Below are positions 2 to 15,158 of a DNA stretch of 23,450 nucleotides, piece by piece; the first letter of the stretch is position 1; the number at the start of each line of letters is the position of its first letter. A program made the position numbers and the translations under genes. Origin of the DNA: a virus; the IMG/VR virus record IMGVR_UViG_3300034374_002585, positions 1 to 23,450 of that record. One strand, given 5' to 3'. The notes beneath the pieces were generated by a model that was not told the DNA's origin, made no database searches, and saw only the letters and a list, made by a program, of their open reading frames with translations.

Positions 2-688
2 GTTAATGTAACGCCTACTATTTATAGATTATGGTTACAACACAAAAAGCCTATACCGGTATGGTTTGGAACAGACTATGTTCGTGAAGCATACGAGGGA
101 TGCCCACTTATAGAGGTGATTGATTCACCAAAAGGCAAAAAGATGGCTTCAAGTGCAATGATATGTACTAACAACTCTATGCCTGACTACAAGTGGGTGC
201 AGAATATTGTATTTGGGAATATTGACGAAACAGCAAAGGGTATAGTGCATATTGACCCTAAATGGGATGAATTATACTATGGCATGGCAAAAGAAACGGG
301 TGGGTATACCGTATTCTTATTCGGTAGTGGCAATGAATCTCCTACATACGTTGCAAGCAAAAGCCCCGATTTAGAGGTATACAACCGGCTTGCAAAAGAA
401 AGCTATTCGATATTTACAGGTAGTGCTAATGATATGGCAAGAGTAGACAGAATAATCGGAGCGTTTAAAGGTGTTTGCATAGGCAATATTCGGCAATCCA
501 TAGCACTAATAAGACACGCAGAAAGGGTTGTAGCAAATGATACGGGGCTTGCTCACATTGCAGGGGTTCTAAATAAAGAACTTCACGTTATGTTTAAGGA
601 TACGCTTCTTCCAAAGAATGCGAATATGGGTCAAAACACGCTATATTACACTAAGGGAACTTGGGATAAATTACACTTTACCAAATAA
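2..688 (+). CDS. Glycosyltransferase family 9-like protein (5' end missing)
   Basis: The frame is open to the left edge of the window, so this is the C-terminal 228 residues of a longer protein; the GTG at 116 is only an internal codon. The last third carries ANDTGLAHIAG (about bases 533-565), which resembles the nucleotide-sugar-binding signature of the C-terminal domain of GT-B family 9 enzymes (heptosyltransferase-like). A preceding strand ending VFLFGSGNE also fits that fold. Such enzymes transfer a sugar from a nucleotide donor; the acceptor here is unknown and could be a host surface glycan, a virion protein or modified DNA. It ends 15 bases before the small terminase start, and its stop codon lies inside an inverted repeat at 673-693. 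Family is fairly likely; substrate is not inferable. Confidence 0.7.
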   Translation, partial: VNVTPTIYRLWLQHKKPIPVWFGTDYVREAYEGCPLIEVIDSPKGKKMASSAMICTNNSMPDYKWVQNIVFGNIDETAKGIVHIDPKWDELYYGMAKETGGYTVFLFGSGNESPTYVASKSPDLEVYNRLAKESYSIFTGSANDMARVDRIIGAFKGVCIGNIRQSIALIRHAERVVANDTGLAHIAGVLNKELHVMFKDTLLPKNANMGQNTLYYTKGTWDKLHFTK

Positions 689-3426: not shown

Positions 3427-4143
3427 TTAAAAAAGCCCTCCGCACTCGTTCACATTATTGATTGAGTAATCGAAAACCTTTTTATCCAATTCGCTGCCTA
3501 AATAATTTTTATTTTGCCCTATACAAGTTTTTGCGAAATTTCCACTTCCGCTAAATGGCTCAACTACTAAACCATTTTCTGGGCAATAGCATTTAATCAG
3601 TATATCGTAAAGTTCTTGTGGCTTACTTGGTATCTTTCCTGTATGTGGTTTGTTAAAGTGCAAATGGTCACGCAACCAAACACCATCTTTACTTTTTTCA
3701 AATTGCTTTCCATCTTCCTCATATCCTTCAAAGACTTTTTTACTTCTCTTAAAGTCTTTTGTGTTTTCAGAGTAATCAATTCCTGTCCGTTCGTTAAAGA
3801 AACTTTTTTTACTATCCACAACACAATGATATATTTTTTGATGTGATACCAAAGGCATTCTATTAGAAACCCATGCACCGCCATTTGTAAAAGTCCAAAC
3901 TATCTCACGTCTAAAAATATGGTTTACTTCATTCCTTAATTCAAAATCAAAAGGTTGTTTAGTAAAGCAAAGAATATTACCTGTTTGTTTTAAAACTCTA
4001 ACCGCTTGAACAATTAACCCATCAGCACAATATTTATCCCAATCTTGATAATTAGGATCAAGTATTACTAAATCAACGCTTTCATCCTCTAACTCGAAAA
4101 GCAAATCAAAAGCATCTTTGTTGTATATCTTATTTATTTCCAT
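3427..4143 (-). CDS. DNA adenine/cytosine-N4 methyltransferase, beta-class order
   Basis: A 238-residue amino-methyltransferase. Motif IV is DPNY at residues 29-32 (in VDLVILDPNYQDW), and the S-adenosylmethionine-binding motif I is EPFSGSG at 195-201. The order IV then I, with a variable middle region, defines the beta class (N6_N4_Mtase family), and the length is normal for a stand-alone phage enzyme. The usual motif is DPPY; Asn at position 31 is unusual. No restriction endonuclease is adjacent, so it is probably an orphan enzyme that protects phage DNA or alters regulation. It lies against the direction of the virion genes, is visibly richer in A+T than they are, and is bracketed by two similar stem-loops, which suggests later acquisition. 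Target sequence unknown. Confidence 0.85.
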   Translation of the reverse strand: MEINKIYNKDAFDLLFELEDESVDLVILDPNYQDWDKYCADGLIVQAVRVLKQTGNILCFTKQPFDFELRNEVNHIFRREIVWTFTNGGAWVSNRMPLVSHQKIYHCVVDSKKSFFNERTGIDYSENTKDFKRSKKVFEGYEEDGKQFEKSKDGVWLRDHLHFNKPHTGKIPSKPQELYDILIKCYCPENGLVVEPFSGSGNFAKTCIGQNKNYLGSELDKKVFDYSINNVNECGGLF

Positions 4144-4173
4144 CGCTTTTTTTATTTAACTACTTACAACAAC

Positions 4174-4203
4174 GTATAAAGTGCATTAAAAAGCACCTTA
4201 TAC
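4174..4203. repeat. 11-bp stem-loop between the two minus-strand genes
   Basis: GTATAAAGTGC (4174-4184) pairs with GCACCTTATAC (4193-4203) at 10 of 11 positions around the loop ATTAAAAA. Stem length, ends and loop match the element at 3380-3409 closely. Outside it, AACG (4171-4174) and CGTT (4208-4211) could extend an imperfect hairpin. It lies 32 bases past the stop of the minus-strand gene at 4236-4511 and before the methyltransferase start. Confidence 0.65.
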
Positions 4204-4235
4204 AAACCGTTAATGCAAATATACACAAAAACTTA

Positions 4236-4511
4236 TTACGACAAAATATAATTCCTTTGTGCTTCTTTTACCTTAGACATTACTTCTTCTTTTGATAGCG
4301 GAGTTTGCACTTCCTCCATAGTAAGTTCTAATACGCTGCCTTCCAGGTCTGAATCATCACTTAAATCATACACTTGAATAATGTGCTGTGCGTTTATGTA
4401 TCTATCCTCTACTGCATCAACTCCTGATGCGTTAAGGTCTAAGATCATCTCTAAATCGTTTTCTTCACCTTCTAATCTGATGCAATAATAAACCGGTATT
4501 CTAATAAACAT
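4236..4511 (-). CDS. Hypothetical acidic protein
   Basis: A 91-residue acidic protein that I do not recognise. It begins MFIRIPVYYCIRLEGEENDL, suggesting a short beta-rich N-terminal part, and has an acidic centre with DLSDDSDLEGSVLELTMEEV and a helical, basic C-terminus (KEEVMSKVKEAQRNYILS). There is no signal peptide or membrane segment. The start is supported by the GTGTCTTTATA motif on the minus strand about 21 bases upstream. It reads in the same direction as the methyltransferase, about 90 bases ahead of it, and may be co-transcribed with it. A small accessory or host-takeover protein is possible, but nothing in the sequence shows it. Confidence 0.6.
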   Translation of the reverse strand: MFIRIPVYYCIRLEGEENDLEMILDLNASGVDAVEDRYINAQHIIQVYDLSDDSDLEGSVLELTMEEVQTPLSKEEVMSKVKEAQRNYILS

Positions 4512-4532
4512 AGTCTTTTTTTATAAAGACAC
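4512..4532 (-). promoter_or_regulatory. GTGTCTTTATA motif before the minus-strand gene
   Basis: On the minus strand GTGTCTTTATA starts at 4532 and is followed by seven A and GACT before the ATG ending at 4509. GTCTTT (4513-4518) and AAAGAC (4525-4530) form an inverted repeat. It abuts the divergent plus-strand promoter beginning at 4533, so one factor bound here could affect both directions. Confidence 0.5.
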
Positions 4533-4563
4533 TTGCATGATAAAATAGAATGCTTTATATTTG
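4533..4563 (+). promoter_or_regulatory. Bacteroidota-type promoter
   Basis: TTG at 4533-4535, a 20-base spacer, and TATATTTG at 4556-4563 match the Bacteroidota housekeeping promoter (-33 TTG, -7 TAnnTTTG). Transcription should begin near 4568-4572 and run into the non-coding region before the tail module. This is the best host-type promoter in the window. Confidence 0.7.
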
Positions 4564-4567
4564 CAGC

Positions 4568-4855
4568 AATATAGGTTTCCCGAAAGGGGGTTTTTTTAAC
4601 ATAATCAAAGACTGCTACGCTTAGGCAGAGGAAGAGCGAAGTTCGCAGCATAAGGGGATGGCGTTCATGGTTCGGATACCTAACGACACCGAACAGAGAG
4701 TACCATCAGGCAACGATGGAGGGATGCACAAACAAATGTCGTAGCAAAGGTCATGGATGCCTAACATTTTCCGCTTTGCGGGGTGATTACGACCGAGAAC
4801 TCATGTTCAAGCAGTTTCACTCTCCCTTATTGCAATAACATTTAAGGGGGGCTTA
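4568..4855 (+). ncRNA. Candidate structured non-coding RNA, unidentified
   Basis: No convincing protein gene lies between 4512 and 4963. About 290 bases behind the promoter are richer in G+C than the flanks and can form several stems. 4579-4581 pairs with 4586-4588 around GAAA, followed by seven T. A long-range helix pairs TGCTACG (4613-4619) with CGTAGCA (4740-4746), extended by GAC/GTC (4610-4612 with 4750-4752). Nested inside it, GATGG (4657-4661) pairs with CCATC (4703-4707), enclosing GTTCGG (4670-4675) with CCGAAC (4689-4694). AGGCA (4708-4712) with TGCCT (4758-4762) would make a pseudoknot. CCGC/GCGG lies at 4771-4781 and GAAC/GTTC at 4797-4808. An 8-bp stem (4822-4829 with 4843-4850) closes the region. 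It does not match tRNA, tmRNA, 6S or RNase P RNA as I know them. Confidence 0.5.
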
Positions 4856-4859
4856 AAAC

Positions 4860-4948
4860 TCCCTCGAATCTATATTAAGCAGGTTTCTTATAGTATTCAG
4901 TTATAAATAGTATAGATATAGACTATAAGTTTAACTATACAGAAATAT
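4860..4948. other. AT-rich gene-free leader before the tail module
   Basis: Between the candidate RNA and the motif at 4949 the sequence is very A+T-rich, with repeated ATAGTAT-like words and a possible GTATAG (4909-4914) with CTATAC (4935-4940) pairing. I see no gene and no classical promoter here. It may be an upstream promoter region or the 5' leader of the tail transcript. Confidence 0.4.
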
Positions 4949-4963
4949 GTGTCTTTATAGTAA
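4949..4963 (+). promoter_or_regulatory. GTGTCTTTATAGTAA motif before the tail module
   Basis: GTGTCTTTATAGTAA ends directly at the ATG at 4964. There is no Shine-Dalgarno sequence. This copy shows most clearly that the motif is tied to the start of the gene; transcription starting inside it would give a nearly leaderless message. Confidence 0.5.
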
Positions 4964-6325
4964 ATGGCTATTAGTATAGAACAAGAACCGAGTAATACAC
5001 TCTATGTTCCGATAAACAATCCAGTAGAGTATTTAGTATCATCTACGAGTACATCACAGAACAACTTTAAGTTAAGTTGTAAGATAGTTGTAAACGGAAC
5101 AGAAGTTAAAGAGTTAAAGTATGATGTAATACCTTCTACTGCGTATGTGATAGCGGAGATACAAAGGATACTGCAAGGCTTTGCCTCTGATGGAGAAGAG
5201 AACTTAGTAAACGAAGAATCAGAAGCTAAGATAGAAACAGACATGAAAGATACTGCAAGAGCAGTCTTTCAAGAGTGGTATTCTTCAAGCACTACATCTA
5301 ACCCTACATATCAAGGCACACAAGCAAGTGGGGCTGTGTTCTATATTTGGAACGGAGCATTTAAGTACAGAGAGTGGCAGAATAATGATTGGCATCAATA
5401 CAGCGTAGATGCACGCCCTTCCGTTCAAGGAAGTACCAAAGCATTAACAGCATTCACTAATTACAGAAGTGGTTTTACAACAAGTGGGTCTTCCGGGTTT
5501 CCAATAACCGATTTGTCAGCAGCTGACAAGTTTAAGAAGATAACCCCAACACAGCTATCAAGGCTTGTATGGCTAATGTATGATGTAAGTGGAAGTCATC
5601 AATTTATTGCATATTACACATTCTACGCACCAGACTTTTCGGCTGCTGCAAACAACCCTTACGGGGCAGATATTTTAAATAGCAACACCTACATAGCAAA
5701 CGTAGTAAACGGATTTAACGTAGTCAGCAAAAACTTTGACTTAGACAAGTTAAAGACATCAAGCAATTACAATTTTACATCCAATCAGCTTACAACTATA
5801 AACGATACAAGCGTAAAGTATTTTAGCGTATACCTAACATCAGCTTTATACTCTGAAACCGTTGCATACCTATACGAAATAGATTGGAACGCTTGCTCTA
5901 AATATGACAGCTACGAAATACATTGGCTAAACCACTTAGGCGGTTGGGATAGCTGGGTGTTTGATAAGCGATCTGATAAGCAGATAATCACGCAAAGAGA
6001 TTGGTACACGCAGCCAGTTACACGAAGAATAGTCAGCGATACTATTATTCACGATTCTTATGCTCGCAAGAAAAAGCAGTATTACACAGAAATATCTGAA
6101 CGATATACCATAAATAGCGGCATCCTTAAAGATTGGGAGTACGATGGATTAATAGACCTATTGCAAAGCCCGAAGGTATATTGGCGGCATCCTGATTACG
6201 GGTTTATTGCCATTAACATATTAGAGAAAGAAACCATACAAGTGCCAAGACAAGTAAACGAAAAGGCGTACAATCTAAACTTCGTATTTGAGATAGATAA
6301 CCAGGATAAGCTGCAAGGGCAATGA
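4964..6325 (+). CDS. Bacteroidota phage tail structural protein (distal tail/baseplate type)
   Basis: A 453-residue protein of a type I associate with Bacteroidota siphophage tails. It has no signal peptide or membrane segment. The C-terminal third holds the recognisable part: EIHWLNHLGGWDSWVFDKRS, then a strand-rich stretch with QYYTEISERYTINSGILKDW and a helix before SPKVYWRHPDYGF, ending with a series of strands. This looks like a beta-sandwich tail subunit. The middle is rich in Ser, Thr and aromatic residues. It overlaps the next gene by ATGA at 6322-6325, and both lie upstream of the tape measure, so a place in the distal tail is the best guess. The exact role is inferred from context. 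Confidence 0.6.
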   Translation: MAISIEQEPSNTLYVPINNPVEYLVSSTSTSQNNFKLSCKIVVNGTEVKELKYDVIPSTAYVIAEIQRILQGFASDGEENLVNEESEAKIETDMKDTARAVFQEWYSSSTTSNPTYQGTQASGAVFYIWNGAFKYREWQNNDWHQYSVDARPSVQGSTKALTAFTNYRSGFTTSGSSGFPITDLSAADKFKKITPTQLSRLVWLMYDVSGSHQFIAYYTFYAPDFSAAANNPYGADILNSNTYIANVVNGFNVVSKNFDLDKLKTSSNYNFTSNQLTTINDTSVKYFSVYLTSALYSETVAYLYEIDWNACSKYDSYEIHWLNHLGGWDSWVFDKRSDKQIITQRDWYTQPVTRRIVSDTIIHDSYARKKKQYYTEISERYTINSGILKDWEYDGLIDLLQSPKVYWRHPDYGFIAINILEKETIQVPRQVNEKAYNLNFVFEIDNQDKLQGQ

Positions 6326-15137: not shown

Positions 15138-15158
15138 GTGTCTTTATAGTAAAGACAC
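15138..15158. promoter_or_regulatory. Perfect palindromic copy of the start-proximal motif between divergent genes
   Basis: GTGTCTTTA (15138-15146), TAG, TAAAGACAC (15150-15158): both 9-bp arms are exact inverse complements. It lies between the nuclease start on the minus strand (15121) and the TTG start on the plus strand (15161). A perfect palindrome in a divergent gap is the pattern expected of a site for a dimeric regulator, or of two back-to-back promoters. Confidence 0.6.

Follow-up and report, generated by a model that had tools for sequence, protein, structure and literature searches.

The locus studied here raises the question of what a tailed phage keeps in a gene-free stretch, at positions 4512-4963, between a minus-strand gene for 91 amino acids and a plus-strand tail gene for 453 amino acids. 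The window, by which we mean the whole 23,450-base stretch of a virus record that was analyzed, carries terminase, tail tape measure, protease and structural genes, and the TANNTTTG type of promoter found in it indicates a host among the Bacteroidota. The initial annotation had proposed a promoter-driven structured RNA of unclassified type for the gene-free stretch, and had remarked that part of it is richer in G+C. The latter holds: the G+C content is 46.5% for 4599-4882 and 51% in the core, compared to 27% and 21% in the flanks. The window has no tRNA or tmRNA gene. A predicted structure of the 91-amino-acid neighbor gave an unusable model (pLDDT 45).

Comparison with a related phage was informative. 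L004 is from a diverged phage, uncultured like that of the window, and shares 77% protein identity with the window for the terminase, 60% for the tail protein and 31% for the 91-amino-acid neighbor. A homologous element lies at the syntenic position in L004, in front of its version of the tail gene. The conserved element covers about 284 nt on the plus strand (4599-4882; counterpart at about 5591-5892 of L004) and is 73.4% identical over 271 aligned bases. At the DNA level, this equals the conservation of the terL gene (73.2%) and exceeds that of the two flanking genes (47% and 63%). The linker between the RNA and the tail gene start, about 82 nt in the window and about 110 nt in L004, is not conserved in sequence. 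A sister contig, L001, is nearly identical to the window (fully so over 4101-5000) and therefore adds nothing to the comparison. Counts of covariation are limited accordingly, since only two distinct sequences of the RNA are known, those of the window and of L004.

The region is non-coding. A conserved reading frame, which the initial annotation had named as an outcome that would speak against an RNA, is absent: substitutions are spread over the three phases (25/91, 26/91 and 21/89), stops occur in every plus-strand frame of the window region, and most insertions and deletions between the window and L004 are single bases. A protein-coding gene was rejected on these grounds. A DNA repeat or the template of a diversity-generating retroelement (DGR) was likewise rejected, as blastn and nhmmer find no second copy in the window or in the homologous loci searched. 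The element also lies outside every Rfam family tested, in agreement with the earlier view that its class is unfamiliar: Rfam 15 (4227 families) gave no match at the gathering threshold in the window or the homologous phage contigs, and permissive scans of both RNA copies returned only unrelated chance matches (best E 1.1).

Is the element a structured RNA? The folding energy of the window sequence alone does not speak to this. For 4568-4870 it has a z-score of -1.14, with 14 of 100 shuffles as good, and for the trimmed region 4600-4864 a z-score of -1.44; as values of -1.1 to -1.5 are within chance, we dropped folding energy as evidence for structure. The RNAalifold energy of the alignment between the window and L004 has a z-score of -6.1 against column shuffles, none of which (0 of 300) did as well. 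In an unbiased enumeration of the helices common to both sequences, the top hits were P5 and PK1, with four double changes each and each anchored by invariant neighbors. None of 1500 shuffles that preserved conservation contained two helices (of at least 5 bp) with at least four double changes each, nor did any of 50 control windows taken from alignments of coding sequence between the two phages. The full structure has nine helices, in which all 50 pairs are kept in both sequences and 13 show double, compensatory changes; when the partners are slid by 1-3 columns, 34-49% are paired, with at most two double changes. Since sharing was one of the grounds on which the structure was selected, the retention of all 50 pairs is not independent evidence on its own; the shuffles and the coding controls are. 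Compensatory changes that preserve helices, the general mark of a structured non-coding RNA, are thus present, and we regard it as almost certain that the gene-free stretch encodes such an RNA.

The helices, all on the plus strand, are arranged as follows. P1 is a hairpin (4612-4616/4624-4628) with an invariant loop, ACGCUUA, and two double changes; P2 is a small hairpin, GCGA/UCGC (4636-4646), which is invariant in both phages and therefore beyond a covariation test. P3 is a long-range helix of 9 bp (4660-4668/4753-4761) with one double change and with its G.U wobbles kept. The hairpin P4 (4671-4675/4689-4693) also has one double change, and its loop (4683-4688) pairs with 4737-4742 to form the 6-bp pseudoknot PK1, which reads ACGACA/UGUCGU in the window and GUCGCA/UGCGAC in L004, a total of four double changes. 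The hairpin P5 (4703-4707/4715-4719) has double changes in four of its five pairs, from CCAUC/GAUGG in the window to CACGA/UCGUG in L004. P6 (4744-4749/4774-4779, one double change) forms a second pseudoknot with P3, which is conserved, with weaker covariation than P5 and PK1. As P6 interlocks with P3, the core, as modeled from the two sequences, is a double pseudoknot. Further downstream, the short hairpin P7 (4804-4813; three pairs, UCAA loop) varies on one side only, and the stable 3' hairpin P8 (4821-4827/4845-4851), which has no U-tract after it, shows three one-sided changes compatible with G.U pairing; no double changes bear on P2, P7 or P8. Two further pairings are candidates, both of them without covariation: the P1 loop GCUUA (4619-4623) with UAAGC (4877-4881), and the P2 loop (4640-4644) with 4797-4801.

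About half of the stems drawn in the initial annotation turned out to be wrong, and the pseudoknotted core was not among them. Its inner stem at 4670-4694 and its 3' hairpin at 4822-4850 are kept in L004. The long-range helix (4613-4619/4740-4746) and the outer stem (4657-4661/4703-4707) had to be abandoned because they are broken in L004, where 2 of 7 and 1 of 5 pairs are kept; the strands involved belong to P1, P5, PK1 and P6. For the remainder, the picture is mixed. The hairpin at 4771-4781 is kept in L004, but is unvaried and competes with a better-supported helix, the hairpin at 4797-4808 keeps three of its four pairs, and the pseudoknot that had been proposed between 4708-4712 and 4758-4762 keeps four of five pairs, but lacks covariation and overlaps the conserved P3.

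The structure also bears on whether the conserved unit is RNA at all. An intergenic, conserved stretch might instead act at the DNA level, as a packaging site, replication origin or attachment site. The compensatory double changes, which include those of a pseudoknot, the retention of G.U pairs on the plus strand and the conserved promoter make this highly improbable. The G.U pairs kept in P3 fit the plus strand as the functional one.

The promoter that the initial annotation had recognized is present in both phages. A pattern scan places a host-type (Bacteroidota sigma-ABfr) promoter, TTG-N20-TATATTTG, at 4533-4563 on the plus strand, with a counterpart at 5544-5573 of L004 that has an N19 spacer, and it is kept although the surrounding sequence is poorly conserved. 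The published Flavobacterium consensus is TANNTTTG, with a G at -5 (PMC6847099), and from the match to this consensus, transcription is predicted to start near 4568 in the window and near 5578 in L004. Covariation, conservation equal to that of the terminase gene and the conserved host-type promoter together support the earlier proposal of a promoter-driven structured RNA of unclassified type. The first part of the predicted transcript, a 5' leader at 4568-4598 on the plus strand, holds a 5-bp terminator-like hairpin (4577-4590) with U7, which is not conserved in L004. This hairpin and its seven U follow right after the predicted RNA start, too near to it for ordinary termination.

A second kind of motif stands before the tail gene. 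A phage-specific promoter-like sequence, GTGTCTTTATA, lies at 4949-4963 on the plus strand, outside the RNA and directly before the tail gene start at 4964, and both phages have this sequence or a close form of it immediately ahead of that gene. Six exact copies of the nonamer GTGTCTTTA are present in the window, compared to 0.27 expected, and every one precedes a gene start; in the L004 phage, too, the nonamer precedes genes. A YATTTT-like block often lies 12-18 nt upstream of the motif. The sites of the GTGTCTTTATA motif lie 6-29 bases before gene starts. In the window they are at 690, 4949, 11172 and 15138 (plus strand) and at 4531 and 15157 (minus strand); further sites are at 6002, 9142 and 12847 and, on the minus strand, 5456 and 12379 of contig L007, and at 5768 of L080. 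Some gene starts are so close to the motif that the mRNAs would be leaderless, and at 15138-15158 the motif forms a palindrome common to divergent genes. The minus-strand site at 5456 of L007, a contig of the homologous phage, faces a gene-poor stretch of about 0.9 kb (4570-5450) that is partly richer in G+C and has no Rfam match. From its position and recurrence, we infer that the GTGTCTTTA motif is a phage promoter, although it could be another signal at gene starts. If it is a promoter, the RNA would be a unit of its own under host control.

These observations bear on the choice, left open by the initial annotation, between a stand-alone RNA and a leader of the tail operon. As a cis-acting 5' leader, the RNA would be part of a transcript that runs on from 4568 and would control elongation, attenuation or translation. 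In both phages it does lie on the same strand as the tail gene and only 82 nt (window) or about 110 nt (L004) upstream of it, and neither has a clear intrinsic terminator in between, so that transcription could run into the tail operon. In the window, a terminator-like hairpin sits at the extreme 5' end, and competition between two GGAUGC stretches for GGCGUUC could permit a switch. HK022 put RNAs and EAR antitermination leaders are structured RNAs that directly follow a promoter and precede a long operon, and the present RNA is like them in this respect. It is, however, larger than these and pseudoknotted, shows no sequence relation to them that we could find, and precedes an operon with a promoter-like motif of its own, at 4949, which is common to other operons of the phage. 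Moreover, the linker is not conserved, the 5' hairpin is absent in L004, and the same tail operon occurs in distant relatives that lack the element. A leader is therefore a possible but rather doubtful explanation. The conserved promoter in both phages and the phage-specific motif of the tail gene favor an independent RNA, and we consider the RNA probably to be stand-alone.

How widespread is the element? In distant relatives of the tail gene, which are 38-40% identical to it, the site is a short gap that lacks the element, so that the RNA looks like an accessory element of a single phage lineage. Searches for a third copy gave none: scans of viral and genome contigs with conserved motifs recovered only the two known elements and chance or coding matches, and protein-guided searches by the tail and terminase genes were likewise negative. 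Blast searches of phage and plasmid collections found no RNA relative, only a 33-base chance match in a cyanophage. A covariance model found no copy in 395 Bacteroidota genomes, a sample that has no relative of the tail protein either, and none in 42 viral contigs with related terminase or tail genes, some of which are fragments; the model was built from two sequences and may miss distant copies. No conserved antisense targets were found in the phage genomes, where the matches in the second phage were the RNA itself.

With its site between packaging and tail genes, the RNA is positioned as a moron cassette would be. Small minus-strand genes adjoin it in both phages; in the window, one of them is a DNA methyltransferase gene with a host-type promoter, while L004 carries, beside a gene for 92 amino acids, a different small gene that is not a methyltransferase. 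Two Mom-family (DNA modification) proteins are encoded by the homologous phage, at L167 2982-3674 and L168 5512-6297; one is a strong match, the other diverged. The terminase genes are preceded by glycosyltransferase-like genes, Glyco_transf_9 in the window (2-688) and Glycos_transf_1 in the second phage (L007 7118-8272).

In both phages the terminase genes lie on one side of the RNA and the tail genes on the other, which might suggest a packaging or assembly RNA that works with the terminase or procapsid, as the pRNA of phi29 does. The two are alike as phage non-coding RNAs. However, the present phage has a different terminase family, the ordinary Terminase_3, none of whose members is known to depend on an RNA, and there is no Rfam match. 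The promoter is of host type, unlike the phage motif before the terminase gene, and the 42 viral contigs mentioned above, some of them fragments, have no such RNA at the sensitivity of the model. We consider a packaging role improbable. Most improbable of all is that the RNA serves a retroelement or an RNA-guided nuclease as guide or template (DGR, retron or omega RNA), an idea that the pseudoknotted scaffold and similar size might bring to mind: among the scanned proteins, which cover part of the genes of both phages, no reverse transcriptase, TnpB or IscB was recognized, and the phages have no repeat copy elsewhere and the RNA no Rfam match.

Two further comparisons concern the fold. In the order of its P3 and P6 strands, the RNA recalls the P3/P7 pseudoknot in the core of group I introns. 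We nevertheless rejected a group I intron, since permissive scans gave no Rfam match, no guanosine-site consensus was recognized and the element does not lie inside a gene; the 3' strands of P3 and P6 are only 12 nt apart, and no hairpin like P8 of group I introns lies there. ROOL and GOLLD RNAs are phage-encoded, non-coding and heavily structured with pseudoknots, and their function is not known (PMC12286853). The present RNA is like them in all of the former respects, but at about 280 nt is smaller than the ROOL studied (659 nt) and many GOLLD RNAs (>800 nt). Assembly into homo-oligomers is a further trait of these two families. They often occur near tRNA islands, while the contigs of the two present phages have no tRNA genes, and as the family models do not match, the likeness that the initial annotation had suggested is one of type, not of homology.

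Together, these data lead us to lean, by a modest degree of confidence, towards an independent, compactly folded non-coding RNA of a Bacteroidota phage lineage that is transcribed early by the host enzyme and acts in trans. An RNA of about 280-315 nt would be made from its own promoter by host RNA polymerase, probably early in infection, and would exist as a separate molecule. It may then work in trans; the likeliest mode is that the pseudoknotted core (P3-P6 with PK1), together with single-stranded segments that are invariant, binds a protein of the host or the phage. Our leading guess is a decoy or inhibitor of a host factor, because the neighbor on the other strand of the window is a DNA methyltransferase driven by a host-type promoter. 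More tentatively, the RNA might represent a new class of independent double-pseudoknot phage RNAs, made early by host polymerase, whose target in trans would be a host factor, for example a component of defense or transcription.

The element is a candidate for a new RNA family among the orphan structured RNAs of phages. It would add a family that is absent from Rfam, from a phage lineage without close relatives in the phage records searched. Size is part of the reason why orphan phage RNAs of the ROOL and GOLLD type are still unexplained; the present RNA is small. It is also compact and backed by covariation, and its promoter is defined and its start predicted, so that its fold and its partners would be directly testable.
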